Positions 272-24,879 of a stretch of 28,814 bases of DNA are shown in pieces. The stretch spans positions 1-28,814 of IMG/VR virus record IMGVR_UViG_3300025907_000029; one strand, 5' to 3'. A program made the translations under genes and the position numbers. The notes beneath the pieces were generated by a model. It made no database searches. It had not been told where the DNA came from and saw only the letters and a program-made list of their open reading frames with translations. Each line of letters opens with the position of its first letter. The stretch's first letter is position 1. This stretch comes from a virus.

Positions 272-1450
272 ATGAAAAAGATATTCTTTATATTTAGTTT
301 TGTTCAATTATTGAACATGACTGCTCAGGCTGCTATTATACAGCCGCCTCGGACTGGTGCTCAAAGGACAACGTGGTCAGTGAGTTTTATAACTAATGCA
401 AATTATCTCACTAATTGGGCGTTAGTGCCTACTAATGCACTCACTGGTGGTAGCGGGCAGACAAATTGGAACGTTGCGGCAATCACCAACGCCGGGACCG
501 CCGCTTACTCCAACGCGACCGCGTTCGCCTTGGCTCAAAGCGGAACCATCGTCACGCAAAACAATTCCTTCTCCCTGGTTCTGAGCAACGCGCTAAAGAT
601 GGACGCCGCGCACTCGCTTTCTTTGAGTAATGCGACGGCTTCACGGCTCGCGTTTGTTGGCGCGGATAATACGGTTGGAAGTGCGGCGGGTTCAGGTGCG
701 GTGCCAGTGGACGCAGACGGGAGCGCGGCGACAGGTCCGCAGGTTAACGCTCTGTTTTCAGGGTTTGTTCAGACCAATAACAACGTAAACGCGATCACGT
801 GGTTCACTAATAACGGTGTGGCTGTTGGCGTCAATTCAAGCGGGGTTATAATCGCAACGAATTACGCGGCGGCAGGCGTAGGGATGTCTTGGAACACTAA
901 TGGGGTGATACTTGCTTATAGCGCAACTGACAACTCATTTGATGTGAGGAGCGGAACCAGCGGAGCAAGCAGCGCAAAGATTCTTGTTGCTAAAGGCGGA
1001 GGATTTGGCGGTGCTGGATTTAATGGTGCCATTAAGTTTAGCTCGGCAGACGGATCGCTTCCATGTGGATGGGATTATGCCTCCACAGGGTTTATTCCTG
1101 GAAATGACAACGAGCTTCATCTTGGAACCACAACCCGGAGGTGGAAGGACGTAAACACTTATGCGGTGCTCGAACCTGTTGTAACGAAAACCACGAATTA
1201 CACCGCAACTCTTACCGATTCAATAATCCTCGTAAACGGAACAACGCTGACAATGACTCTCCCGACCGCTGTAGGAAACACGAGCAAGACTTTTACCTTT
1301 GAGGAAATAGCGAACTCAACTGGGACGATCACCAACTCGAACGGCTCGCAAAATATCAATGGGTCACTGAGTTACTCGCTATCGGCGCAATACAAAAATG
1401 TGAAGGTGGTCAGTGATGGCACGCAATGGTGGGTGATTGGGAACAACTGA
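272..1450 (+). CDS. Tail-fibre-like protein with a Sec signal peptide
   Basis: This 392-residue protein starts with MKKIFFIFSF and has a hydrophobic core ending near AQA (about residues 19-21), which looks like a cleavable Sec signal peptide. The middle is rich in Asn, Thr, Ala and Gly. Near residue 280 is the segment HLGTTTRRWKDV, like the 'LGs..rrWkdv' motif of many phage tail fibres. The last 100 residues resemble a fibre-tip beta module ending in WWVIGNN. A signal peptide on a virion fibre is odd. It may instead be an exported adhesin-like protein made in the infected cell. The gene follows its neighbour by one base with no Shine-Dalgarno sequence, and its stop overlaps the next start (1448-1452). 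One palindrome copy (301-317) lies in codons 10-16. Confidence 0.8.
   Translation: MKKIFFIFSFVQLLNMTAQAAIIQPPRTGAQRTTWSVSFITNANYLTNWALVPTNALTGGSGQTNWNVAAITNAGTAAYSNATAFALAQSGTIVTQNNSFSLVLSNALKMDAAHSLSLSNATASRLAFVGADNTVGSAAGSGAVPVDADGSAATGPQVNALFSGFVQTNNNVNAITWFTNNGVAVGVNSSGVIIATNYAAAGVGMSWNTNGVILAYSATDNSFDVRSGTSGASSAKILVAKGGGFGGAGFNGAIKFSSADGSLPCGWDYASTGFIPGNDNELHLGTTTRRWKDVNTYAVLEPVVTKTTNYTATLTDSIILVNGTTLTMTLPTAVGNTSKTFTFEEIANSTGTITNSNGSQNINGSLSYSLSAQYKNVKVVSDGTQWWVIGNN
301..321 (+). repeat. Dispersed 7-3-7 palindrome, copy 1
   Basis: TGTTCAA-TTA-TTGAACA at 301-317, followed by TGAC (one change from AGAC). It lies inside the signal-peptide codons of the gene at 272, in the frame that reads V-Q-L-L-N. 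Confidence 0.85.
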
Positions 1451-2469
1451 TGAAGCATTTTCTTCCATTACTTTTCGCGCTTTCCGCACTTGCCCAAGTG
1501 CCCCCGAACGATCCCCCAGTGGGACCGCCGCCTGATCCAGTCTGTGTACCTTTCATCGACAATTCCGCATACTGCCGCGTTGAGTACGGTAAATGGTATC
1601 TGACGAATTGGAACAAAACCTCGGACCTTTATCTGAACGGTGTCTATCAATCAACAGAACCAGCGGGCAACGCCTCGATTGACTTTTTGCCGTGGCCTGC
1701 CAAGCGCAACATAACAGTCGGAATAGCTGATTCATCACATGGAATATCACTGGATAACATCATTACCAACATTTGTTCAGCTACAGTGTTTCACTCCACT
1801 CCCGACGCAGCAGGAATTAGAGACTGTGTTAGCGCAGGGTGCAATGTTATCAACATCTCATGGTTTACCACAGTCCAAGGCCAGCCAGCAACCGATTTGT
1901 CAAACGCCTGTTACGAGGCGACTCAAGCGGGGGTGATTCTGGTTTGCTCGGTTCCAAACGTGAACCAAAGCATTGATGATACTGTGGCGCTTCCAGCTTC
2001 ATTGGTGATGCCGCTACTAATCCCGGTTTGCTCAAGCACAAGGCAGGATGCGCTTTATGCTCCAACGGCGATTGGCAGTAATGTCGTGGCTGCTCCGGGA
2101 AGGGTTATCTGGACACAGGCGCCAGATGGCTCACCGGCTTATGGCTCAGGTTCTTCTTATGCTGCACCTATCGTTGCCGGTGTTGTTACATGGCTATTGG
2201 GACAATTTGAGCAGACTCCTACCGTTATCGTGCAGGCGATTCGACAGGGCTGCACACCTATAAGTTCTAGTGTCTTAGGGCGTGTTTCTATCGCTGGCGC
2301 GGTCAACGCTCTTAGACCAAAGGTCAAGCTTTCAGTGCTTGGAATCGACGGGGCCATGTACATGGTCGAACGTTCTACTGATTTAGTTGACTGGAATTAC
2401 TTTACAACCACGACCGCAAACACACCCTGTGATGCAACTCCAGGGTTTTATCGAGCAAGAATACTATAA
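1450..2469 (+). CDS. Secreted subtilisin-like (S8 family) serine protease
   Basis: I chose the ATG at 1450, which overlaps the previous stop (ATGA), because it gives the signal peptide MKHFLPLLFALSALA; an upstream ATG at 1426 would add eight residues and spoil it. The 339-residue protein has subtilase landmarks: HG at 97-98, the strand NVINISW at 132-138, an oxyanion-type Asn170 in SVPN, and the nucleophile motif GSSYAAP with Ser236. The likely catalytic Asp94 is only three residues before His97, far closer than in typical subtilases, so activity is uncertain. The C-terminus (about 291-339) carries a module of the type 'VERSTDLVDW...FYRARI', common in verrucomicrobial secreted proteins. Possible roles are host-envelope or capsule breakdown, or release of progeny. 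Confidence 0.82.
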   Translation: MKHFLPLLFALSALAQVPPNDPPVGPPPDPVCVPFIDNSAYCRVEYGKWYLTNWNKTSDLYLNGVYQSTEPAGNASIDFLPWPAKRNITVGIADSSHGISLDNIITNICSATVFHSTPDAAGIRDCVSAGCNVINISWFTTVQGQPATDLSNACYEATQAGVILVCSVPNVNQSIDDTVALPASLVMPLLIPVCSSTRQDALYAPTAIGSNVVAAPGRVIWTQAPDGSPAYGSGSSYAAPIVAGVVTWLLGQFEQTPTVIVQAIRQGCTPISSSVLGRVSIAGAVNALRPKVKLSVLGIDGAMYMVERSTDLVDWNYFTTTTANTPCDATPGFYRARIL

Positions 2470-4609: not shown

Positions 4610-5038
4610 ATGAACTGGGGACTTGTATGGAAAATAGTATCAGAACTATGCAAAGCATTACGATACATAACCTTTCGGAAACCAAAGCGTGGTGTCTTTC
4701 TTATCGTGGAGGACGACCCACGTGATGCCGAATTGCTTGAATACCGGGTCAAAAAACGGGGATGGAAATGTGAAATTGCCACCTCAGGAGAAGTTGCGGC
4801 AGGGCTTGTCAAACATACGTTCTACCCTGTGGTCTTTGTTGACATGCGACTGCCGGGGATGTCCGGCGCAGCGTTGGTGCGCGTACTATCAAGAGAGGCA
4901 CCAAACACCAACATTGTTGTTGTCTGTGGAGAGCCTCAAGACCTCTCAAACATCCCCGACGGACAGTTTGTTTGCGTAATGCGGAAGCCGCCCACATTAG
5001 AGGCGATTGAAGACATGTTACATAAGTTAAAACTATGA
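4610..5038 (+). CDS. CheY-like response-regulator receiver domain protein
   Basis: This 142-residue protein has a receiver domain from about residue 28 to the end. The acidic pocket E34-D35-D36, the phosphoacceptor Asp78 in VDMRLPGMSG, and Lys126 in MRKP are all present. The conserved Thr/Ser that couples phosphorylation to the conformational switch is Cys106 here (VVVCGEP). No output domain follows. Residues 1-27 form an unusual amphipathic, partly basic leader with three Trp/Tyr residues that could touch the membrane. The stop overlaps the holin start (ATGA at 5035-5038), tying it to the lysis-like cassette. Possible roles are sequestering host phosphate flow or timing lysis; both are speculative. 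Confidence 0.88.
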   Translation: MNWGLVWKIVSELCKALRYITFRKPKRGVFLIVEDDPRDAELLEYRVKKRGWKCEIATSGEVAAGLVKHTFYPVVFVDMRLPGMSGAALVRVLSREAPNTNIVVVCGEPQDLSNIPDGQFVCVMRKPPTLEAIEDMLHKLKL

Positions 5039-5316
5039 AGAATCTATTAACTAATTGGAAGACGACCTTCGCGGGTATTTCCATGATTATCACCGCTGTT
5101 ACACATCTAGTGTTTATGGTCAACAGCGGTGAGGCTGACCCGGCGGTTTGGAAAAACGACCTTATAGCTGTAGCAGGTGGCCTAGGTCTCATATTCGCGG
5201 GTGACGCGACACAATCTCAGAAGCAAGTCGATGATGCAAAAGAGCAGGTTAAGACTGCTATTGAGACTCAAGACACAAGTCATATCACTCAAACGAAAGA
5301 CGAAACAAAAGTATGA
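5035..5316 (+). CDS. Putative holin
   Basis: This 93-residue protein has a short N-terminus (MKNLLTNWKTTFAG), a first hydrophobic segment at about residues 12-29, a loop with Asp and Trp, a second segment (LIAVAGGLGLIFAGDA) at about 43-58, and a hydrophilic charged tail. This matches small two-segment phage holins, which open the inner membrane at lysis. The 'GGLGLIFAGDATQS' part resembles a widespread holin-like family. Four-base overlaps on both sides (5035-5038 and 5313-5316) indicate translational coupling with the receiver protein and the lipoprotein. The holin call rests on topology and context; no endolysin was recognised next to it. Confidence 0.72.
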   Translation: MKNLLTNWKTTFAGISMIITAVTHLVFMVNSGEADPAVWKNDLIAVAGGLGLIFAGDATQSQKQVDDAKEQVKTAIETQDTSHITQTKDETKV

Positions 5317-5675
5317 AGAAGTTATCAATAACATTAGGACTCATTGCGATGCTTGTATGCTCATGTGCGTCCCCAATAGGAACGGCAGGGAAGCTCCTTA
5401 AGACCTCGCAAAAAACGGTCGACGCTGCTATGCAAGGTTGGGCCACGTATGTAGTGCTTGCAAAGCCACCAGTCATGCAAGAGGAAAAGGTCCGGTCAGC
5501 TTTGACTCGGTACCAGCAATGCATGATGGTCGCCAAGGTTGCCTATGCAAATGCGTTCAATGCCCCGACAGACCAGACGGCTCTAGATACCGCCATTACG
5601 GTCCTTACGGAGACTGAGTCAGAATTACTTGGTCTTATCACCTCGTTCGCCGGTAAAGTTCAAAAACCAACATAA
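5313..5675 (+). CDS. Small predicted lipoprotein in the lysis-like cassette
   Basis: This 120-residue protein begins MKKLSITLGLIAMLVCSCASP, a short type II signal peptide with a lipobox-like VCSC just before ASP. The mature part is mainly helical, without further membrane segments. It overlaps the holin stop by ATGA. A lipoprotein directly after a holin would fit an outer-membrane spanin subunit (Rz1-like). However, it is longer than typical Rz1, is not Pro-rich, and has no clear inner-membrane partner, so only the lipoprotein call is firm. Confidence 0.75.
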   Translation: MKKLSITLGLIAMLVCSCASPIGTAGKLLKTSQKTVDAAMQGWATYVVLAKPPVMQEEKVRSALTRYQQCMMVAKVAYANAFNAPTDQTALDTAITVLTETESELLGLITSFAGKVQKPT

Positions 5676-5676
5676 T

Positions 5677-5865
5677 ATGCCTGCACCGATACTAGCACAA
5701 CTTATCATCGCACTCGGTCCGCCAGCTTTAAGTCTTGCTCGTGACTTAGCTAAGGTTTGGAATGAACCGACTCTCACACCTCAGCAAGTTGAACAAATCT
5801 GCGGAGACGCCCAGAAGTCTTACGATTCATATATCGCTGACGCCAAAGCAAAACTTAACGTGTAA
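5677..5865 (+). CDS. Small protein of unknown function
   Basis: The start at 5677 follows the previous stop by one base (TAATATG junction), giving 62 residues. An in-frame ATG at 5629 lies inside the lipoprotein gene and is unlikely. The N-terminus (residues 1-22) is hydrophobic and contains GPPALSLARDL. The second half is amphipathic helix (LTPQQVEQICGDAQKSYDSYIADAKAKL). It may be a membrane-attached lysis accessory, but no family was recognised. Its stop overlaps the next ATG (TAATG at 5863-5867). Confidence 0.65.
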   Translation: MPAPILAQLIIALGPPALSLARDLAKVWNEPTLTPQQVEQICGDAQKSYDSYIADAKAKLNV

Positions 5866-6350
5866 TGTGCAAAACAAGTTGCTATCTGACGCTGCCGCCA
5901 AGCTGGAAAAGGCACTTAGTCTTGAGACGATTGAAGATCGTAAGACTGATATCGTTCAGTGTATTGGTGTTATTCACTACCTTGTGCATAGGAGCGGATA
6001 TAACTCCAGTGCTTCCCGGTGTCGTGGTAAAGCCTCAGATAGCAACGTCCCTCATAGGGACTAACGAACCGGTGGCAAGGATTAAATACTACTTTTTGCC
6101 ACTCGGCCAGGTTCCTATTGATAATACCTTGACTAATGCGCCGTTTCTCGCCCAACTCGAAGGTCAGAACGTTCGGTTCACTTTCCCGGTCCAAAGCAAC
6201 CGGGTCTATGAGATTCAAACCAAAGTTTGGCTTGAAGAAGAATGGCACACAGACATAAGGTTCACCGCCCCTAAAGATGATGTCTTTACGTCGTTCTATC
6301 CAATAGACGTAAAAGAGGAGTCACGCTATTTCCGTGTAATGTCAAACTAA
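5865..6350 (+). CDS. Secreted protein with a verrucomicrobial-type C-terminal module
   Basis: The longest form starts at ATG 5865 and has 161 residues. Its first 19 residues do not look like a signal peptide, so a TTG start at 5922 is plausible. That start would give a clean Sec signal of about 24 residues (MRRLKIVRLISFSVL...GA). The mature part is beta-rich and ends with a module (RVYEIQTKVW...ESRYFRVMSN) resembling the C-terminal segment of the protease at 1450-2469. Such endings are common in Verrucomicrobia and may help surface display or sorting, but their role here is unknown. Another reading frame overlaps its 5' third (5867-6064). The stop overlaps the next start (TAATG). Confidence 0.72.
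   Translation: MCKTSCYLTLPPSWKRHLVLRRLKIVRLISFSVLVLFTTLCIGADITPVLPGVVVKPQIATSLIGTNEPVARIKYYFLPLGQVPIDNTLTNAPFLAQLEGQNVRFTFPVQSNRVYEIQTKVWLEEEWHTDIRFTAPKDDVFTSFYPIDVKEESRYFRVMSN
5867..6064 (+). CDS. Possible nested small gene in another frame
   Basis: A GTG at 5867 would start a 65-residue product whose first 45 residues look like a real soluble helical protein (SDAAAKLEKALSLETIEDRK), while the overlapping frame reads poorly over the same stretch. After about residue 45 the composition turns into Arg/Ser-rich, shadow-like sequence. Either this is a true nested gene, like the embedded reading frames of some lysis cassettes, or it is the remains of a gene whose 3' half was overprinted by the secreted-protein gene. 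There is no Shine-Dalgarno sequence; it would depend on coupling to the stop at 5863-5865. Confidence 0.35.
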   Translation: MQNKLLSDAAAKLEKALSLETIEDRKTDIVQCIGVIHYLVHRSGYNSSASRCRGKASDSNVPHRD

Positions 6351-15200: not shown

Positions 15201-17759
15201 GACGACCTAGGTAAAGACTATGACCCACTTAATTCTACATTCGAGGTGAGTCTTAGTGAGCAAGACTATCAGACCCTTAGAGAGTATGGAGTTGAGCCGT
15301 ATCAGGAACCGCCGCCTCAAGCTAAGGGTATGGAGCTTCATTATGATAAGACATTGCAAAAAGTCTATGAGGAGTTGACAGGTAGTAAAGGTGAGCCGAT
15401 TAGTCTTGGTGAGCATAAGATGGCGTTGAATCCTAATGAGCCTAACGTTGATGAGTTTGGTCAGTGGACCGCCGAGGGTCCCACGGATGAGAGTAGGGTC
15501 CGAAAAGACCTATACTTCCGCAATGAAGATGGCTCGCCCAAGACTGACATCACCGGCAAGCTTTATCCTTTAGAAAAGACCAAAGAAAGGTTCTCCTTAG
15601 TGGATAAGGATAAGCCTGACACGGATGTTAAGTATCTGTATGCTGGTATGAAGATACCGGGTCTTGATAAGGTTTGGGAAAAGCTTAAGGTTGCCGTTGA
15701 TCCTACGAAAGCGGTCGAGGCTGCAAAGGAACTTGTGCCTAAGGTGCTTGACCAAGTCTATGGTCATGGCGTGAAGCGGGACTTCAGTGAAAGTATTGAA
15801 CACCTCAAGGCGGACGTGGCTGGCTATAGCGCACCTCACCATGTGGCAGTCAGTGAGACCTTGGCTAACAAGATGATCGAGTATGCCGCCGCCGACCAGA
15901 CCGCTTCATTACCAGCAGCCACAAGGTCATTAGCTCCAACCTATAAAAAAGACGCTATGATGTCTTGGCTCAATGAAGGCGTCAAACAAGGGGTGTATAA
16001 ATTCGGTAGCCCAGACTTGGCTCCTATGGCTGGCGGTAAGGCAATGGAAAAGATACCGCTCCGCCTTAGCATCAAAGGGCAACCTAAGGGTCAGAACAGC
16101 CTTTATGTCAGAGCCGACCTTGCACCCGAAGTTAAGCAAGTCGTTAGTGGTCAAGGACGTATTCCAAGCGAAGGTGTTCAATTTGTCCTAAAGGCTCTCA
16201 CGAAGTTACAGCTTATGGCTCCCACCGACTTAGTCGTTCATTCGGCTAATATGTTTGGCACTGTAGCTCGAAGCCAAGGTAAGTATCCTAACATAGCCGC
16301 CGACCTTGTGGCTAATATGCCTATCGTTAAGCAGATAGATGCAGCACAGAAGCTAGCTTTTGGAGTCATGAGGATTATCTGTGATAATCCGGCGACTCAA
16401 GATCAGTTGTTAAAGTTATCTAAACTTGATGCTTTAAGGCCAGATGCCGTGGAATACAACAGCATTTCCTCTCGTATTATAAAGACCTTTGACAGAGCGG
16501 GGCGTATTGTCCGGGACCAAATGTTCGATAATGGTGTTAAAATGGGTCTATGGAAAGACACGCCTTTAAATCGTCGTGAGTTTGTTAATAAGATGGGTCA
16601 GTATAATACTAAGATGATGACGCATGCGATGGCTACATTGCGTAACTATACATCTCAGTTCGTGGTCGCCGGACGTCGAATGAATCGTAATGCACGTGAG
16701 GCAATACTTATGCAGAACGAACTCAAGGCGGCAAGTCCCGGTGCCTATGCTCAGATGAAGTTTAATAACATCTTGTCCGTCTTGGCGACATGGATAGGCG
16801 CTACAGTCGTGTTAAACATGGCCTTTACTGGTAAGCCTTTCGGACGTCCAGGCACGCCTACCGGCAAGGTCGATACTGGCAAAGACAGTGATGATGGACG
16901 CCCGTTAACAATCGACTTGGCCAAGACTGATTTGTCCCGTAGAGGTGCTAGAAACCTTGGCATTGAGGCGGTCATTAACGGTATCAAGCAGAAGAAAAGC
17001 GTAGGTGACACCGCATCGGATGCTATATGGGACATCATTAATGGTCACCTTAATCCGTGGATGGGTCCGCCAGTCCGTCCTTTCGACGAGGCACGTAAAG
17101 AGTATGCCGTCTCGCATGACGCAAATGCAGCCCTTTGGAAAGGTGCCTCGAAGTTTAACCCTATGACAGTAGCCTTAGAGAAGGACGAAAAGGGTAAACA
17201 TAAAGGGGCCGGAGAGTACGCAATGCAACTAGCCGGGTCGGTAGGCTACGGCAAAGGTTACTTCTTAACTCATATTCAACGTCTCGAAAAGGACGCAGGC
17301 AAGCCCGTCAATGAGATGTCTCTCAAGGAACGAGTTCTAGCCGAGCAGCACTTGAAAGAAGTCGAACCTCGGCTATCTGAGGAAGTACGTGCAAAGACTG
17401 CCACCCGCCCTGTGATGGAAGAGTATAAGACCGCCAAAGAGATTCGCGATAGCCTGTCGAAGGCTGACCGGGGCTTCCTTGAGTCCCGTGAGTTGTCAAT
17501 CCCTGGGTTCCGTAACATTATCGAGGTCGCCAAGACCGAGTTGCATCTTACACCAGAGGAGCAAGACCGCTATAAGCAGTATGTTAAGGAGGAATATGTG
17601 AAGGCTATCGAGTTCATGCGTAAGGACGTTCAAAGGTTCGACGCGTTGCCTAAGGTCGGCCAACAGCAAGCCTTCATTAAACTGATGATCGGTGCTAAGA
17701 AGGCGGCACGTGGTCGACTTCTTAAGGAGATGGACTCTATTCAATCTGGTCCAAAGTGA
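12252..17759 (+). CDS. Giant polyvalent / internal virion protein (1835 residues)
   Basis: The N-terminus carries the octapeptide LPPGFVLE twice (residues 4-10 and 16-23), and LPEGFVLE recurs at 326-333. A Pro-rich linker follows. Several modules typical of phage 'large polyvalent proteins' come next: a unit with GFTTKDGNFVTREEAAKIAR (about 546-565), an EVQSDW motif near 874-879 (as in polyvalent-protein domains), and a long helical C-terminal region from about 1330 with a membrane-like segment (ILSVLATWIGATVVLNMAF, about 1507-1525). Length, position after three small helical proteins, and one late hydrophobic segment fit a T7 gp16-like ejection protein. No transglycosylase motif was found. 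The 3' end overlaps the convergent LuxR-type gene by 23 bases. Confidence 0.85.
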   Translation: MPLPPGFVLEEQPKGLPPGFVLEPESPVQKLNKTQLAALPQFKLEQPSWLERNAATLYSMVEPFTPQGLLSQSNRLLGLPDPTIDGRPLEQYSPLEPLLGPPQPQPYQPFTGGPPIPYPEHPDVLRGASQAMREKLLEYTSLGNIMTYPAFVNPVARLGLAGKMTYDTGQRLQQIPQQATELGSDPNASAGDLAKLLTGGAIDLGAAYSMAKFAGPQPPPAQSLGAEAFKASQRPGDVPIDVESTVSPPELPLLGTGQKLLDYNAPRFAVNSMGHTADLSQLTPKEQTELLRGPREFVPREQYVRPAQAEPQIVKPAATTGQILGLPEGFVLEDQSSPLVKGPESEASVIQEPKAPEGVEAEAVPQEGQPLKTAAELTSDPGHALHGGIPIKDLADQFKKIRPYLSQMNDNGLKTVYSEHGLSDQADVPYVVFSKPTEAQVEQIQKAAEHVGGSVQVREGRTGVYFKGGTQKEVMQDWADFTHKLTTKHELHAGAKIEKEDIKTLPSISKSAYKDKEGNIYTGLWHYNALEKVPQHLQKDAKAGFTTKDGNFVTREEAAKIARKAGQMYSRAADQYDMGGLTKLDSAHLKLDTTDMLEHKLHAGAEIEKEDLQKVVTNLKDREKDLRGGTYQMSIPRMMVTPGKEGNGFSDSLKPVDGTQLWNRAKNKHAAEASMLEEMGVADKIKGQRLSPAEAAKIVQENGPKVEVKKFGDSQEKVHPKVAQYRQLLHEFYDNLKNDKLMEFNQAGYDNSFTPKKGLNKSYLASRGWTSAEIKTAETYWNLAKDPEVKQAKEQRNENQAHWSSVAPKPEKDMPGYVEIAVTKDAGKVHRGFEGTEQGNRQLFPASHSFPPNTLAWTRAFEDKYGDIKIGHVVEVQSDWAEQRRKMVETMKQRGATQEDIVRAREGEGQPRILSRAEAVNNDPLLAHYERLAAKATIEHFKSQGAKAIFIPDSKTAMMTEGHDRLLGNEYQIDNTKESRQALDDLGKDYDPLNSTFEVSLSEQDYQTLREYGVEPYQEPPPQAKGMELHYDKTLQKVYEELTGSKGEPISLGEHKMALNPNEPNVDEFGQWTAEGPTDESRVRKDLYFRNEDGSPKTDITGKLYPLEKTKERFSLVDKDKPDTDVKYLYAGMKIPGLDKVWEKLKVAVDPTKAVEAAKELVPKVLDQVYGHGVKRDFSESIEHLKADVAGYSAPHHVAVSETLANKMIEYAAADQTASLPAATRSLAPTYKKDAMMSWLNEGVKQGVYKFGSPDLAPMAGGKAMEKIPLRLSIKGQPKGQNSLYVRADLAPEVKQVVSGQGRIPSEGVQFVLKALTKLQLMAPTDLVVHSANMFGTVARSQGKYPNIAADLVANMPIVKQIDAAQKLAFGVMRIICDNPATQDQLLKLSKLDALRPDAVEYNSISSRIIKTFDRAGRIVRDQMFDNGVKMGLWKDTPLNRREFVNKMGQYNTKMMTHAMATLRNYTSQFVVAGRRMNRNAREAILMQNELKAASPGAYAQMKFNNILSVLATWIGATVVLNMAFTGKPFGRPGTPTGKVDTGKDSDDGRPLTIDLAKTDLSRRGARNLGIEAVINGIKQKKSVGDTASDAIWDIINGHLNPWMGPPVRPFDEARKEYAVSHDANAALWKGASKFNPMTVALEKDEKGKHKGAGEYAMQLAGSVGYGKGYFLTHIQRLEKDAGKPVNEMSLKERVLAEQHLKEVEPRLSEEVRAKTATRPVMEEYKTAKEIRDSLSKADRGFLESRELSIPGFRNIIEVAKTELHLTPEEQDRYKQYVKEEYVKAIEFMRKDVQRFDALPKVGQQQAFIKLMIGAKKAARGRLLKEMDSIQSGPK
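12332..12352 (+). repeat. Dispersed 7-3-7 palindrome, copy 3
   Basis: TGTTCAA-AAA-TTGAACA at 12332-12348, followed by AGAC, inside the giant virion gene (codons 27-34, V-Q-K-L-N-K-T). A weaker palindrome, AGTTCAA-AC-TTGAACA, follows at 12373-12388. Confidence 0.85.
13722..13754 (+). repeat. Duplicated LHAGAxIEKED element, copy 1
   Basis: Encodes residues 491-501 (LHAGAKIEKED) of the giant virion protein. A near-identical peptide is encoded 330 bases downstream (14052-14084). Together the copies bracket a separate domain. The bases differ mainly at third codon positions, so the duplication is not recent or is under coding constraint. Confidence 0.75.
14052..14084 (+). repeat. Duplicated LHAGAxIEKED element, copy 2
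   Basis: Encodes residues 601-611 (LHAGAEIEKED) of the giant virion protein. See copy 1 at 13722-13754. A looser relative (YLYAGMKIPG) occurs further on, near 15637-15666, just ahead of a helical region. Confidence 0.75.
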
Positions 17760-17949
17760 TAAGCTTCCGCTTCACGGCGGCACAAAGCATGGAGCTAGTG
17801 TTATGACAGCCAAGCTTGCCATAGATATTCTCACGATGGTGCATGGCCGTCCGTAATGAGATCTTAAGATGGTCAGCGACCTCTTTGTTTAGTTTACCTT
17901 TACATAGTAACCCTAAGACTTCCAGTTCCCGAGGAGTAAGTTTGCCCAT
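17737..17949 (-). CDS. Stand-alone LuxR/GerE-type HTH transcription regulator
   Basis: This 70-residue protein consists almost entirely of a LuxR-family DNA-binding domain. It has LTPRELEVLGLLCKGKLNKE (4-23), then VADHLKISLRTAMHHRENIY and GKL (24-46), and a final VKRKLITL. The usual 'TVktHrxxI..KL' helix reads TAMHHRENIYGKL here. No receiver or sensor domain is fused. It is the last gene of the minus-strand operon, 64 bases after the DUF3987 gene, and its 3' end overlaps the end of the giant virion gene. It may switch between early and late transcription. It is a candidate reader for the dispersed palindrome, which has two 7-base half-sites (inference). Confidence 0.85.
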   Translation of the reverse strand: MGKLTPRELEVLGLLCKGKLNKEVADHLKISLRTAMHHRENIYGKLGCHNTSSMLCAAVKRKLITLDQIE

Positions 17950-19589: not shown

Positions 19590-22364
19590 TTATTCGAATG
19601 TCCCTACTTGCGAGTCCTTATCGAAAGCCCAGTTAGTACCGTATTGACCAGAGAACGGAATCTTGATGTATTGACCCGCGATGATAAGGGTGTTATCAAA
19701 GTATTGTTTAATCTTACTAATTGCCCAGGCGGTATCGGCAATGGGCCACTGTCCGAGTAGAGCGTCGTGGACCTGATGAAGAGGCTGTATGCGAAGTCTT
19801 TTATCCGTTCGATTCTCTGGGTCTCTATACAAGTTGAGGGCAGCTTTGTTTGTGGCATAGGTTGTATTTTCTTGTGGTTCATTCGCTAACGCCTCACCTA
19901 GTATCTCATTATATCGTCCGAAGAACATTCTCGTGTGACCTGAGGCGGAAGTCAGCTTCGGCGGATAAGATTGACGGGACAGTTTCTTCTCGGTCTCCTT
20001 GTGCCAAATATCCGGTTTATAACAAGCATAGACCGCTTGGCGGAAGTTCGCTACATCACCCCGGCTCATCTTAATTCGGCCTTCACTCTGGACGAAGATA
20101 AGGTCGGCAAGGCGGTCCACTCCCATTAAGTAGCAGATGCCCCATATCCCACACTTGCACATAAAGTAGTCAAAGTCCTCTTTTTTGATCTCCTTTAGTA
20201 GCTGTTTAATTTCCTCCCGTTCTTTGCCTCGCAACGAATCATTACCGTGCCGGAGCATGTACGCAATGCGCTGAGCTGGTTTAATTCTTGCCAAGAGATC
20301 GTCAAGCATAGTTCGTTCACCGAGAGCTGCCAAATGTGCTCCCACTGTCCAGCCGTCAGCGCCAGAGAGATCGCATTGAAAAAGGTAGTATCCTTCGTCC
20401 GCCGTAAACAGGTCTCGCATACCTCTTTTGAGAGGATGTCCGTCGGGCCGAAGTGGATCTTCGGAAGGTATCGTCTGGAGATTGTAACCGCTTCCGGTAG
20501 GGGAGGTATAGCAAGTAATACGTCCTGTCTCAGTCCCGACAACATTATAACCTGCACGGATTCGTCCATCTGTATCAGGATATATTTGTAACATTTGTGC
20601 TCTAGTGCGTAGAGTACCAATTTGTAAAGCGAGTTCAACGCTTCGATGCGAGGTAAGGTGACTAAGCTTAAGGAGGGCTTCGTAGTCTGTTGTGAGTTGC
20701 CCTGTTTTCTTATTAACTTGCTGCGGGAGCTTGAGTGTTTCATAAAGATAAGTTTTAAGTTTGTCTCCTTTGATATTCATGTCGATACCGAGGTCGATAT
20801 GAAGACGGCCACGTTGAGCGTCCGTGAAGTTTGCCCCACTCTTAAGTAGTGCCATATGAGTGGCATAGCATTCGACATACTCTTTCTTAGGCTGCGTAGT
20901 ATCTCGCTTATAGCACATCACAGATTGGACAAGTTTAGCCACCCCTTCTCGATTAAGACTTGGGTCAAGGCCACATCCAGATATACGGTCAAGCTCATAT
21001 TGCAACCCGTATATTTGCTCCTCAACCTGTGCTAAACGCTCCTTAGCCAAGGCTTGATTGTACCGGATACCTCGAAGCTCCATGTAAAGCATAGGGTTTA
21101 AGAGCGCGACATTAAAGTCATAATGCGCACGGCTCGGTCCTTTGAGCCATTGTGAAAGCTTGTCATTTATTTCATATGTGACGGCTGAGTCCCTCGCGCA
21201 GTATCGCCAATACGTTTCATGGTCTTCTGACGTGCGCTCTTCCTTATAGAACGGCTCAAGAGTATATAGAGAACACTGAAAGCCTAGGCTTTTCTCAAGT
21301 TCGCTATACAGTTCCCAGTGCTTAAGCATCGTATCGTCGCTGACATTCTTTATGACCATGTCATAGGAGAACTGCAAGACGAAGCGATCATATAGGCTAT
21401 TCTGTAGAACTTTAGGGATAGCTGGGTCAGCCATGACACTGGCTAGTGCCCGCCAAAGCCTCGTCTCGTCCTCGACAGAATGGATGCTTCGACCATCACG
21501 AGTAGCGAAGGGGATGGTGAAGCTGGCGGTCTCTGAGGTGGCTATAGATAGACATTTCATCCCATAAGGTCTAGACTTCTCACCGGGCTGCGGAGCCACC
21601 GCCACGTAGCCTTCGATGTCCATAGCGATTAAAGGCTTGTTGACCTTGATTAAAGAGAGCTGAAGTATTATAGAGTCAACGCTATAGTCAATAGTCAAGA
21701 CTCGCTCTGGCGGTTTCCACTCACTCGTATGTGCATGACGGGATGCTTTCTTAATGTCGAACACTAAAAGGGGCATCCACTCGTAGTTACGCAAGCAGGC
21801 TGCCGGATGATAGGCACCAATACACTTCACTCCAGGCAGTGGGGCATCCATTGACGAGACGAAAAAGGAACCTCGCCAGTCAGAGATACTATTAGGATAC
21901 GCGAAGGTGAGTCCCTCGGGGGACTTCCGCTTAGGCACATCAGCTGAACGTCCCGCCATGAAAGAATGTAAGGCGGTACCGCCAAGGCAGATGACGATAT
22001 TCGGTTTAAATAGCCGAAGGTCGTCCGCTAGCTGAGATAGCCCTTCTTGTATTTGAGGACCATTCCAGTCGAAGGCGGTCAGCTTGTTGCCGGCGGGTCG
22101 AGTCTGACAGACGTTTCCTATAAAGCATTGGTCCCGTACGATACCTGCATGGCTAAGGCACTTGTTAAGTTCTCGGCCACTGTGCCCTACGAAGGGCATA
22201 CCCTCTGACACCTCGTCTGCACCCGGTGCCTCACCTATGATAGCGATACGTGCCGTGCCGGGCTTTATCTTAGGAAAGACATTGGGGACTTTCTTGTAGG
22301 TTGTGCGGTCGACTAAGGCTGCGTCCTCCTCGAAGAACTCCTCAAAGATGTTATGTTTAGGCAT
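19590..22364 (-). CDS. Uracil-DNA glycosylase / family A DNA polymerase fusion
   Basis: This 924-residue protein has three parts. The first (about 35-215) is a family 4-like uracil-DNA glycosylase with GEAPGADE (44-51), GMPFVG (55-60) and HPAA (186-189). The second (about 243-410) is a DnaQ-type 3'-5' exonuclease with Asp249/Glu251 in MDIEG, Asn322-Asp326, and Tyr388/Asp392 in YCARD. The third is a PolA domain with TETGR (611-615), motif A Asp665 in CDLSGADGW, motif B around Lys737-Tyr745 (KCGIWGICYLMG) and motif C His866-Asp867. The essential carboxylates are kept, but motif residues elsewhere are unusual: HDA instead of HDE, and Trp741 where F, Y or L is usual. It is the probable replicase. 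The glycosylase domain could bind or remove uracil in the template. ATG at 22364, four bases after the preceding stop. Confidence 0.93.
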   Translation of the reverse strand: MPKHNIFEEFFEEDAALVDRTTYKKVPNVFPKIKPGTARIAIIGEAPGADEVSEGMPFVGHSGRELNKCLSHAGIVRDQCFIGNVCQTRPAGNKLTAFDWNGPQIQEGLSQLADDLRLFKPNIVICLGGTALHSFMAGRSADVPKRKSPEGLTFAYPNSISDWRGSFFVSSMDAPLPGVKCIGAYHPAACLRNYEWMPLLVFDIKKASRHAHTSEWKPPERVLTIDYSVDSIILQLSLIKVNKPLIAMDIEGYVAVAPQPGEKSRPYGMKCLSIATSETASFTIPFATRDGRSIHSVEDETRLWRALASVMADPAIPKVLQNSLYDRFVLQFSYDMVIKNVSDDTMLKHWELYSELEKSLGFQCSLYTLEPFYKEERTSEDHETYWRYCARDSAVTYEINDKLSQWLKGPSRAHYDFNVALLNPMLYMELRGIRYNQALAKERLAQVEEQIYGLQYELDRISGCGLDPSLNREGVAKLVQSVMCYKRDTTQPKKEYVECYATHMALLKSGANFTDAQRGRLHIDLGIDMNIKGDKLKTYLYETLKLPQQVNKKTGQLTTDYEALLKLSHLTSHRSVELALQIGTLRTRAQMLQIYPDTDGRIRAGYNVVGTETGRITCYTSPTGSGYNLQTIPSEDPLRPDGHPLKRGMRDLFTADEGYYLFQCDLSGADGWTVGAHLAALGERTMLDDLLARIKPAQRIAYMLRHGNDSLRGKEREEIKQLLKEIKKEDFDYFMCKCGIWGICYLMGVDRLADLIFVQSEGRIKMSRGDVANFRQAVYACYKPDIWHKETEKKLSRQSYPPKLTSASGHTRMFFGRYNEILGEALANEPQENTTYATNKAALNLYRDPENRTDKRLRIQPLHQVHDALLGQWPIADTAWAISKIKQYFDNTLIIAGQYIKIPFSGQYGTNWAFDKDSQVGTFE

Positions 22365-22368
22365 AGGG

Positions 22369-22572
22369 TCATGACTGATCTTTATTGTGCATTATTTGTT
22401 CACTGAACGCCTCGATTATAGCTTCCTGTATATTCGCATGCAAATGATCGAACTCAACCTCACGCATTAGGCCACTACCAGAGGTGTGCTTGACTATCTT
22501 GACTAGATTAAAGTCCCGCACAGTCACTTCGTAGCAATCGCCATTGTAAAATGCGTGAAAGATTGTGTTCAT
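22369..22572 (-). CDS. Small protein of unknown function
   Basis: This 67-residue protein starts MNTIFHAFYNGDCYEVTVRD and reads as a short beta-rich unit followed by a helix (NIQEAIIEAFSEQI). It is acidic and soluble, with no recognised family. Its start overlaps the HNH gene stop (ATGA at 22569-22572) and it ends four bases before the polymerase start, so it belongs to the replication operon. Confidence 0.65.
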   Translation of the reverse strand: MNTIFHAFYNGDCYEVTVRDFNLVKIVKHTSGSGLMREVEFDHLHANIQEAIIEAFSEQIMHNKDQS

Positions 22573-23024
22573 ACTTGATTCAAAGTGGCAAACTCTTTGT
22601 GCAATTGTAGAGCAGCTTGATTGTATGCTACAGCAGCTTCTTCTTTAGAGTCAAAAAGTCCGATATGAATACTTTGTTTATGGTGTGTGATTGTAGCGCG
22701 CCATTTACGACTTCGTTTATGCCAGCCCACTCCACGTAATCCAGTTGTATTAGTTTCATACTGCTTTGTATTACATGCATTCTGTGCTGCTGTAGCAATT
22801 CGTAAGTTCGAGCGCACATTATTATGTATGTTTTGGTCTTTGTGATCTACCCTTTGTCCTTTAAAGACTTCAATAATAAAATGAGACAAGATTAACCATT
22901 CGTCTTTATTGACGTGGCTCTTTACTGTGTTATCAGTGCAATGCCATTTAAATGTTGACAGGACATCAAAGACATTATCGTCAACGTAAATACTTTCACC
23001 ACAATTACACCTAAATGTTTTCAT
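22569..23024 (-). CDS. HNH homing endonuclease with AP2 DNA-binding domain
   Basis: This 151-residue protein has an HNH core: His48, VDHKDQN (59-65, with Asp60-His61), and NNVRSNLRIAT (68-78), the usual '..NR.sNLR..t' element with Arg to Val. An AP2 domain follows at about 95-149 (GLRGVGWHKRSRKWRATITH, then FDSKEEAAVAYNQAALQLH). This architecture is common in free-standing phage homing endonucleases. A CNCG pair at residues 6-9 is extra. The gene is AT-rich compared with most neighbours and is fitted into the operon by four-base overlaps at both ends (23021-23024 and 22569-22572). It is likely mobile. No split host gene is seen beside it. Confidence 0.88.
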   Translation of the reverse strand: MKTFRCNCGESIYVDDNVFDVLSTFKWHCTDNTVKSHVNKDEWLILSHFIIEVFKGQRVDHKDQNIHNNVRSNLRIATAAQNACNTKQYETNTTGLRGVGWHKRSRKWRATITHHKQSIHIGLFDSKEEAAVAYNQAALQLHKEFATLNQV

Positions 23025-24514
23025 TGAAACTTAAAGTTTGGGTTTATTTTAAGATACATCTTCTTTATATTTTCTAATAAGTAATTGTAATGAGTCTCTT
23101 GCTTTTCCACGGCAATTACATTTCGGTGCATACGTAGCATTTGGATTACCATTGAACCACGACCTGCAAAAGGTTCCAATATGGTTTGACCTTGAATGCT
23201 AACTGCATTAGTTAATAACTCAGTAACTTCATATGGCTTTGCAAATTTGTGTCCTGTATCCATTACCGCCTGAGCGTTGTCAGCTAAGAAGTCTGAACGA
23301 TTAACTTTATTCGCTAAGGTTGCTCCTGGCTTACGCGCTATGATGGCAATTTCATAGTTCTTTGTAAAGTTATATTGTGCACACTGATTCATAGCATGAG
23401 GCTTTAGCCACACAAAAGGCCATCTTTGAACTGCAAAGCCAACTTCAGTTGCAATGTTATACATAAGTTGCCAGTTCATTAGGTCAGCAAATGTAATTAC
23501 AAAGGCGTTATCCTTTGTGCACAACCAAGCAGCGGGATAAAACGACTTAATGAGTTCTAAGTTCTCATCCACGTCATGCTCATCTGCTATCGTGTCTAAG
23601 TCAGCCAACCCACCATGAGGATTCTGCTGATTTAACATTTCGATATCAATGCCGTACGGAATGTCTGTGATGATGTGGTCAAACCGGCTACGTTGTTCGG
23701 GCATTAACATGAAGTCAATACTATTCATGTGAATGACCCGATTAGACACATAAATTACCTCAGACAACTGCTTAGCTTCGGCTTGTTTATTAGCCCAGTA
23801 TTCCTCGAAGGGGACCGTATTTAATGGGTTGCTATTATAGCGTTCACGTTGCTCAGCCAAGGCGTCAGGCTCGGCTTCAACTTGCTGGACAAAGTCAATA
23901 AGTTGCTTTGCGTGAGTTTCTTCTACGTTCTTATTCGCGTTCTCTCGATGCCGTTTTGCAAGCTCTGCTTGAAGTCGGTCCTGTTCGTCTTTCAAAAGAC
24001 CTAAACGATATGCTTCTGCGGCACTTTGAAAGTTCCAAAAGCGACGTTTATCTGAAGGCAAAGCTTGCTCAAGTTTAAGCCTCTCTGCTACACGCAAGAC
24101 ATAATTTATAGTTCCTAACTCCATTCCAAACGCTTCTGCTGCTAGTCTCTGTGACCAGCGCCAACCCTCTAGTGCACCGCGACGTTTCTTGAGTCGGTGA
24201 ATTTCTAAGATTGACAAGCATTCCTCTTGCCATGTCATTGACTTCCGTCGAATGTTCTCCTCAAGTTCAAGCTCATGGAGTTCGTCTTGAGACAAGGTTT
24301 CGACATAACACACAGAGACATGTTCTAAGGCAAGCTTCTGACATGCTGCGTAGCGACGTCCGCCGGCGACGAGTTGCTGGCTTTGGTTAAGAACGATTGG
24401 CTGTATAAGGCCGAATCTAGCTATAGACGCCGCCAAGCCTTCGATATCACCAAGGTCTTCGCGAAGGCGGTCCTTGACTATGATGTCTTTTAAAGGTATA
24501 GTAAAGTTTCTCAT
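23021..24514 (-). CDS. ParB-like domain / DNA methyltransferase fusion
   Basis: The start at 24514 (MRNFTIPLKD) makes an ATGA overlap with the preceding gene; an ORF start at 24562 lies inside that gene. The product is 497 residues. Residues 1-100 form a ParB/Spo0J-like N domain with LVAGGRRYAA (48-57) and the ELELEENIRR box (81-90), then a helical linker to about 250. From about 255 a methyltransferase domain has a motif IV variant TDIPYGID (283-290; usual DPPY) and, later, motif I ILEPFAGRGS (445-454). This is the permuted order of beta-type N4-cytosine/N6-adenine enzymes. It likely methylates phage DNA against restriction. DIPY instead of DPPY may affect target or activity. No cognate endonuclease is adjacent. 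Confidence 0.85.
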   Translation of the reverse strand: MRNFTIPLKDIIVKDRLREDLGDIEGLAASIARFGLIQPIVLNQSQQLVAGGRRYAACQKLALEHVSVCYVETLSQDELHELELEENIRRKSMTWQEECLSILEIHRLKKRRGALEGWRWSQRLAAEAFGMELGTINYVLRVAERLKLEQALPSDKRRFWNFQSAAEAYRLGLLKDEQDRLQAELAKRHRENANKNVEETHAKQLIDFVQQVEAEPDALAEQRERYNSNPLNTVPFEEYWANKQAEAKQLSEVIYVSNRVIHMNSIDFMLMPEQRSRFDHIITDIPYGIDIEMLNQQNPHGGLADLDTIADEHDVDENLELIKSFYPAAWLCTKDNAFVITFADLMNWQLMYNIATEVGFAVQRWPFVWLKPHAMNQCAQYNFTKNYEIAIIARKPGATLANKVNRSDFLADNAQAVMDTGHKFAKPYEVTELLTNAVSIQGQTILEPFAGRGSMVIQMLRMHRNVIAVEKQETHYNYLLENIKKMYLKINPNFKFQ

Positions 24515-24879
24515 TCTGTATATGGTAATAATTTGCTGTCTAAAGGGCACATTAGAAAGCATTGTTTTCGTCGATTCCGTGCTATAAGCAACTCAGCTTG
24601 TACGCCTTTAGACTCTTTCCAACCATCTAGAGTTAAGATAACAAAAAGGTCACATTTTCGTATCATTAGCTCGTCATACTCAGCCCAGTATTGCCAGTCA
24701 GTAGGTAAAGTAGAGTGAATCGCAATAGGATGTGTATGTGTAATAGGGCTAAACACAAAATAGCCTTGCTTAATTAGTTGACCGGCGGCTAAAGCGGCTA
24801 GTTCGAACCGCATAGTTTGAACGTCTGGATAAGCGTCCGTATAGGGACTAGCCAAGTAACATAAGAGTCGTGCACTCAT
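24511..24879 (-). CDS. DUF1937 / nucleoside 2-deoxyribosyltransferase-like protein
   Basis: This 122-residue protein has LASPYTDAY (9-17), FSPITHTHPIA (43-53), WAEYDELMIRKCDLFVILTL (65-84) and DGWKESKGVQAE (85-96; candidate catalytic Glu96). These are the features of the DUF1937 group, which has the nucleoside 2-deoxyribosyltransferase fold and cleaves or exchanges bases on nucleosides. It sits between MazG-like and methyltransferase genes with four-base overlaps on both sides, so it probably works in phage nucleotide metabolism. The substrate cannot be read from the sequence. Confidence 0.8.
   Translation of the reverse strand: MSARLLCYLASPYTDAYPDVQTMRFELAALAAGQLIKQGYFVFSPITHTHPIAIHSTLPTDWQYWAEYDELMIRKCDLFVILTLDGWKESKGVQAELLIARNRRKQCFLMCPLDSKLLPYTE

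Follow-up and report, generated by a model that had tools for sequence, protein, structure and literature searches.

A single-domain CheY-like receiver encoded among lysis-type genes of a metagenomic phage, and its recurrence beside small membrane proteins in other phages

Introduction

The timing of phage lysis is classically set by the accumulation of holins and by antiholins. Holin accessory proteins of the XhlA type are coiled-coil proteins that combine a helical, charged domain with one transmembrane (TM) segment. Among bacterial response regulators, those of the NarL/FixJ type fuse a receiver domain to a LuxR-type helix-turn-helix (HTH) domain. Phage genes for CheY-like receivers have already been published: gp48 of the Alteromonas phage R8W was described as a PhoB related to low phosphate (PMC8228385), and the CheY-like genes of phages V22 and A5 were classed as class II auxiliary metabolic genes (AMGs) (PMC7289586, PMC10579305). 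A literature search, whose limited coverage makes it no proof of absence, returned no link of such genes to lysis. In this work we describe a lone receiver protein encoded in a lysis-type operon of a metagenomic virus, and what is new here is the recurrent lysis-gene context of a known domain. The sequence analysed (hereafter, the window) is the whole 28,814-base IMG/VR record IMGVR_UViG_3300025907_000029, read as a fragment of a tailed phage.

Materials and methods

Relatives of the window phage were gathered by searches with its DNA polymerase and its tail protein and by receiver similarity, and the resulting 45 records were scanned for the receiver family PF00072. Five further records were added by receiver similarity and two more by similarity to a hybrid kinase. 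A set of 25 bacterial receivers, obtained by a scan of genome contigs and located mostly within longer frames, was used only as background for the phylogenetic tree. Regarding cultured phages, R8W was taken from lysis-directed literature, XX1924, PB15, R9Y1, and PT11-V19 were chosen by similarity alone, V22 and A5 were reached from literature without a lysis focus and by similarity, and R22Y was found by similarity. The similarity search with R8W gp48 gave 122 records; among the 40 matches listed, the contexts of R9Y1, XX1924, PB15, PT11-V19, Bhz63, OQ658365, and OQ572403 were examined beside that of R8W.

Results

The window encodes a lone receiver with a predicted amphipathic leader

Analysis of the window revealed a gene at positions 4610–5038 of the plus strand encoding a 142-aa protein, residues 31–109 of which match PF00072 (E 1.1e-12, 48.5 bits, cut-off 30.2 bits). 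The AlphaFold2 model of this protein, built on a 9-row alignment (mean pLDDT 84.3, pTM 0.74), displays the (beta-alpha)5 fold of receivers with a short alpha-4, and its best PDB matches in a Foldseek search were CheY-like receivers (E 1.9e-9), so that structure prediction supports the fold that had been read from the sequence. The residues characteristic of receivers are present: the acid pair Asp35-Asp36 (4712–4717; Asp35 found in 11/11 aligned phage receivers), the phosphoacceptor Asp78 (4841–4843), and the conserved Lys126 (4985–4987), each of the last two kept in 10/11. The position usually, but not in all receivers, occupied by Thr or Ser is Cys106 in the window protein (4925–4927), and an alignment read by eye showed Thr or Ser there in nine of the 11 phage receivers. 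The original prediction of a lone receiver with intact Asp and Lys and with Cys replacing the switch Thr/Ser was thus borne out. The protein ends after the receiver, with no C-terminal DNA-binding domain of the PhoB/OmpR type, and it matches the PhoB model at positions 5–80 of 226 only. In a wide alignment, its identity to other phage receivers was 14–24%.

The receiver domain is preceded by a 27-aa leader (4610–4690), for which an amphipathic helix with possible membrane contact is predicted at residues 3–22, as had also been anticipated from the sequence. This helix appears in the model with pLDDT values of about 65–76, and the best 18-residue hydrophobic moment within residues 1–27 was 0.57, with a mean hydrophobicity of 0.27; the leader is more hydrophobic than those of five related receivers. 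It cannot be trimmed from the protein, since the ATG at 4610 is the sole in-frame start codon before the domain; reading by eye of the sequence upstream of this codon showed no strong Shine-Dalgarno motif at ideal spacing.

The receiver gene is followed by a cluster of small membrane-type genes

Four genes follow the receiver on the same strand. The first one (5035–5316) encodes a 93-aa protein with two TM segments predicted by hydropathy (residues 11–29 and 37–55) and a charged C-terminal tail, and it occupies the slot of holin-like genes in relatives. The second (5313–5675) encodes a 120-aa predicted lipoprotein, whose hydrophobic N-terminal segment precedes a Cys, in a spanin-like position; lipoproteins were found in the same place in six relatives (L018, L019, L038, L058, L115, and L117). 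The third gene (5677–5865) encodes a 62-aa protein, and genes of similar size come after the lipoprotein in L019, L058, L115, and L117. The last gene of the cluster (5865–6350) encodes a protein of 161 aa that has a hydrophobic N-terminal segment and no family match.

The original prediction proposed that the receiver was translationally coupled to a holin. The stop/start overlap ATGA between both genes (5035–5038) is real, and the neighbor is a two-TM protein, but profile searches gave no holin-family match for it. Having two TM segments in 93 aa, it falls within the range of small proteins with one to four TM segments expected of holins, and its designation as a holin is a putative one. Regarding the overlap itself, ATGA is present in three of the 15 neighboring junctions listed in the window; for this reason, it was rejected as special evidence for receiver-holin coupling and is taken as an operon marker, nothing more. 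An endolysin was not found in the window.

Other genes of the window were also recorded. Proteins related to the tail protein are encoded in other phage contigs. Shortly before the receiver come a subtilase gene (Peptidase_S8, 1426–2469, plus strand) and then a gene for a beta-propeller (SBBP) protein. On the minus strand, a single protein (19590–22364) joins N-terminal uracil-DNA glycosylase and 3′-5′ exonuclease domains to DNA polymerase A, and a fusion of a ParB N-terminal domain with an N6/N4 DNA methylase (23021–24562) adjoins the gene for an AP2/HNH protein (22569–23024). At 17737–17949 (minus strand), a gene encodes a LuxR/GerE HTH domain on its own, in a protein of about 70 aa, and small standalone GerE frames were also seen in records G001, G002, G003, and G015.

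Receivers occupy the same slot in seven further lineages

PF00072 was detected in seven of the 45 records scanned, the window included (5/24 and 2/21 in the two sets), many of these records being fragments. With the records added later, collapse of near-identical sequences left eight lineages: the window, G015/G016/G021, G024, G044, G045/G046/G048, G047, G049, and G012/G050/G051. Seven of them carry lone receivers, and the G012/G050/G051 lineage encodes instead a REC-kinase-REC hybrid (REC, receiver domain). In all seven lineages besides the window, the receiver (lone in six, an ATGA-coupled REC-kinase-REC in one) occupies the same slot, located after tail-fibre-type or FN3-like genes and before genes for small TM proteins, which in most lineages are followed by a lipoprotein gene. 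One of these seven lineages differs in its gene set and is a contig that carries an integrase gene. In L119, a gene beyond the receiver and its neighbor matches the holin families PF16079 (E 3.2e-5, below the curated cut-off) and phrog_1129 (E 1.1e-6). The hybrid gene of G012 (L038:6971–8434) overlaps by ATGA both the two-TM gene that precedes it and the lipoprotein gene that follows, and is at least 99.9% identical in contigs of three metagenomes (L038, L084, and L086). Linkage in relatives was thus found as lone receivers beside membrane or lysis-type genes. On the other hand, most relatives lack a receiver, and G001 and G003 keep the cluster of small membrane genes alone, indicating that the receiver is accessory and dispensable. 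A match to L002 was rejected as due to chance, as only 30 residues were matched and the frame lies in a different gene region.

Small genes for LuxR-type HTH proteins precede the receiver, either directly or with one gene in between, at L019:5895–6374, L081:7698–7991, L117:7282–7542, L115:3408–3668, and L058:451–1059, the last one by eye only. In the phylogenetic tree, six lone IMG/VR receivers group together (84/86), and the window receiver (branch length 4.28) and the receivers of the hybrid kinases were left unplaced. The branch of the window receiver is too long to place, and common descent with the other receivers is therefore not supported.

A one-TM charged protein is encoded next to most receivers

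In six of the seven lone-receiver IMG/VR lineages, the next gene 3′ of the receiver encodes a helical, charged protein of 102–109 aa with one C-terminal TM segment (hereafter, the partner). The junction between both genes is an ATGA overlap in L019, L081, L119, L115, and L117, and the genes abut in L058. The exception is the window, where the next gene encodes the two-TM protein and a scan with a partner profile showed no gene of the usual one-TM kind. This profile matched nine of 30 records, all nine with receivers, that is, 9/13 receiver records and 0/17 others (Fisher 5e-5; 1.6e-4 with the receiver side collapsed to lineages), an association that is partly circular because the profile was built from receiver neighbors and the 30 records were hand-picked from 52 (G000–G051). 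The profile had no match in five genomes, nor in 232 genomes from the phylum to which a Chlamydiae record belongs, negatives that carry little information, and no XhlA family match was listed for the partners scanned in Pfam.

In 12/12 partner-type proteins (11 encoded beside receivers and one from the receiver-less G001), Lys plus Arg residues were more numerous on the side of the TM segment that bears the coil, a weak count given C-terminal tails of 1–5 residues and a thin margin in L058. This bias predicts a cytosolic location for the charged part of the partner, where the receiver could touch it. The AlphaFold model of the L117 partner, of low confidence (pLDDT 72.5, pTM 0.31), was used as helical support only. 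Comparison of L117 with L115 gave dN/dS values of 0.037 (receiver) and 0.028 (partner), which indicate strong purifying selection on both proteins; most other pairs were saturated at synonymous sites.

Cultured Alteromonas phages carry lone receivers among lysis-type genes

A lone receiver was located among lysis-type genes in all eight Alteromonas phage contexts examined (R8W, R9Y1, XX1924, PB15, PT11-V19, V22, A5, and R22Y), and in all eight the gene directly 5′ of it encodes a small, charged protein whose single membrane or hydrophobic segment fell, in A5, below the hydropathy threshold. R8W gp48 matches PF00072 over residues 4–115 of 153 (77.1 bits). Since it consists of a receiver only and gave no match to a DNA-binding family, it is not a PhoB. 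This gene is flanked by gp47, with one TM segment and a charged helical part, and by gp49, encoding a TM protein, with ATGA at both ends of gp48, and the annotated holin gene gp46 is just upstream. In R9Y1, a GH108 lysozyme gene comes directly after the receiver with an ATGA overlap; in PB15, an M15 peptidase gene overlaps the receiver gene, and a GTA_holin_3TM gene is nearby. The receiver region of XX1924 contains DUF5675 and GTA_holin_3TM genes, that of PT11-V19 contains DUF5675 together with a three-TM protein encoded on the opposite strand, and R22Y is similar by eye. A two-TM protein and a spanin-like protein, the latter assigned by eye, are encoded in the regions of both V22 and A5, along with DUF5675 in V22 and an annotated endolysin in A5. 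DUF5675 hence recurs near the receiver-bearing lysis regions of XX1924 (L141), PT11-V19 (L143), and V22 (L148), and may be a lysis enzyme.

The PF00072 scores of the other receivers were 83.2 bits in R9Y1, 79.1 in V22, 62.7 in XX1924, 62.6 in A5, and 29.9, just below the cut-off, in PT11-V19; those of PB15 and R22Y were assigned by similarity (61.8% to XX1924 and 53.7% to PT11-V19, respectively). These proteins form four sequence groups (R8W/R9Y, XX1924/PB15, PT11-V19/R22Y, and V22/A5), borne by phages that belong to different families or are unclassified. The groups are not fully independent, since horizontal exchange of the receiver region among V22, A5, and P24 has been proposed (PMC10579305). 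The PT11-V19 receiver seems to lack the phospho-Asp and the Lys in the alignment, and that of R22Y also seems to lack the phosphoacceptor, so phosphorylation cannot be general among phage receivers.

A counter-example is Bhz63, where a complete OmpR-type regulator is encoded outside the lysis genes, next to a membrane protein (kinase superfamily in the record note). The OQ658365 context was rejected as host DNA beyond an integrase, and the OQ572403 receiver record is unannotated. Searches of cultured phages by tblastn with the window receiver, its two-TM neighbor, and the L117 partner gene gave no matches, and the L117 receiver and the hybrid kinase gave weak matches only, mostly to unannotated or host-like records.

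The original prediction considered receivers rare in phage lysis cassettes. On the contrary, they recur there under annotations as PhoB, CheY-like protein, AMG, hybrid kinase, or hypothetical protein, and their recurrence in other phages supports the suggested link of a phosphorelay-type receiver to lysis genes.

Discussion

We propose that the receiver serves the phage lysis operon as an accessory regulatory subunit acting on membrane partners, a reading to which we assign an even chance of being right. The receiver would be made late, together with the holin-type genes, and Asp78 would probably be phosphorylated by host histidine kinases or by a small phosphodonor; in one relative lineage, this would be done by the phage-encoded REC-kinase-REC hybrid. 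The protein would then act on the cytosolic side of the membrane, where its target would be a small protein, usually the one-TM charged helical partner encoded beside it, and binding or release of this target would shift the time of holin triggering with the signalling state of the host, phosphorylation being the usual switch. In the window, the hydrophobic leader and the charged C-terminal tail of the two-TM protein could stand in for the missing partner, and this variant of the receiver, having a leader and no partner, would be self-targeting. The evidence in favor of lysis regulation comprises the fold and the phosphorylation residues, the shared slot, the holin match in L119, the Alteromonas contexts, the partner, the dN/dS values of receiver and partner, and the hybrid of G012. 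The evidence against it includes the many relatives without receiver, the receiver-less clusters of G001 and G003, the window's lack of the usual partner, of a holin match, and of an endolysin, the divergence of the window receiver, the apparent loss of the phospho-site in PT11-V19 and R22Y, and the thin topology margin in L058.

Other explanations were considered. The receiver might form a split response regulator with a LuxR-type HTH protein encoded by another gene of the operon, and the two would control transcription of late or lysis genes. This possibility is favored by the fusion of both domains in NarL/FixJ-type regulators and by the HTH genes that precede the receiver in L117 and in L115 and its copies (29–30 bits, above the 23.5-bit cut-off), as well as by those scoring below the cut-off in L081 (18 bits) and L019 (20 bits), the one recognized by eye in L058, and by the presence of a standalone GerE gene in the window phage. 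This latter gene is, however, far from the receiver, GerE frames also exist in two records where no receiver was seen (G001 and G002), and the receivers of the window, L119, and L038 have no HTH gene beside them; none was seen in the Alteromonas contexts either. A LuxR-type HTH as universal partner was rejected: profiles detected it in only four of the eight lineages, two of them below the cut-off, with one more by eye, which disfavors transcription as the common output. We consider the split regulator an unlikely explanation. The missing output domain, along with the intact phospho-site and the absence of a strict partner in the window, would fit a decoy or phosphoryl sink that drains host histidine kinases and blunts late stress or envelope responses, its placement among lysis genes reflecting late expression only; phage proteins that target host kinases do exist, PIT4 being one (PMC10714779). 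Such a decoy seems improbable, given that phages unrelated to one another repeatedly encode the receiver right beside a small membrane protein and lysis genes, and PT11-V19 keeps a receiver without phospho-site.

The apparent loss in PT11-V19 of both phospho-Asp and Lys would rather suit a scaffold independent of phosphorylation, in which the receiver fold serves as an adaptor for assembly of the holin or the partner, and the Cys106 and short alpha-4 of the window receiver point in the same direction. We regard this scaffold as very unlikely, as Asp and Lys are kept in 10 of the 11 aligned receivers. Equally small is the probability that we give to an auxiliary host-takeover gene, the sense of the published assignments of R8W gp48 as a PhoB for low phosphate and of the V22 and A5 genes as class II AMGs: R8W gp48 has no DNA-binding family match, and this reading leaves the placement among lysis genes unaccounted for.

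If lysis regulation by the receiver is true, its presence in the operon would let the phage read host physiology directly when deciding to lyse, and would explain the CheY-like and PhoB-like genes of phages that have been classified as AMGs. A broader generalization is put forward tentatively and is somewhat doubtful: several unrelated phage groups would have recruited a receiver, or in one lineage the complete REC-kinase-REC hybrid, to the lysis operon and connected it to a membrane protein with a cytosol-facing helix, and burst time would thereby read the two-component state of the host. The link to lysis is testable at once, as cultured Alteromonas phages carry the same arrangement.

Compared with single-domain response regulators such as CheY, Spo0F, and DivK, the window protein shares the lone receiver fold, the acid pair, the phospho-Asp, and the Lys. 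Unlike them, it is phage-borne, belongs to a lysis-type operon, and has an N-terminal leader and a Cys at the Thr/Ser position, and no kinase is encoded near the phage receivers, G012 excepted. The cREC of jumbo phages is also a phage-borne receiver-like fold, but it is tied to NAD/ADP-ribose enzymes and not to lysis genes in the consulted part of its description (PMC7824862). The closest counterparts are V22 gp30, A5 gp11, and the PhoB of R8W, lone receivers beside lysis-type genes whose own neighbor is small and charged with a hydrophobic segment; R8W gp48 is 18% identical to the window receiver in the wide alignment. The consulted parts of the corresponding papers treat these genes as AMG, host-recognition module, or PhoB, and draw no link to lysis (PMC7289586, PMC10579305, PMC8228385). 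As to the receiver partner, its helical charged domain with one TM segment is the architecture of XhlA-type proteins. Finally, antiholins and other regulators of lysis inhibition such as T4 RI (PMC11413866) are small regulators of holin timing that respond to a signal, which is the function proposed for the window receiver; a phosphorelay receiver would be a different kind of sensor, and the likeness lies in this proposed function.
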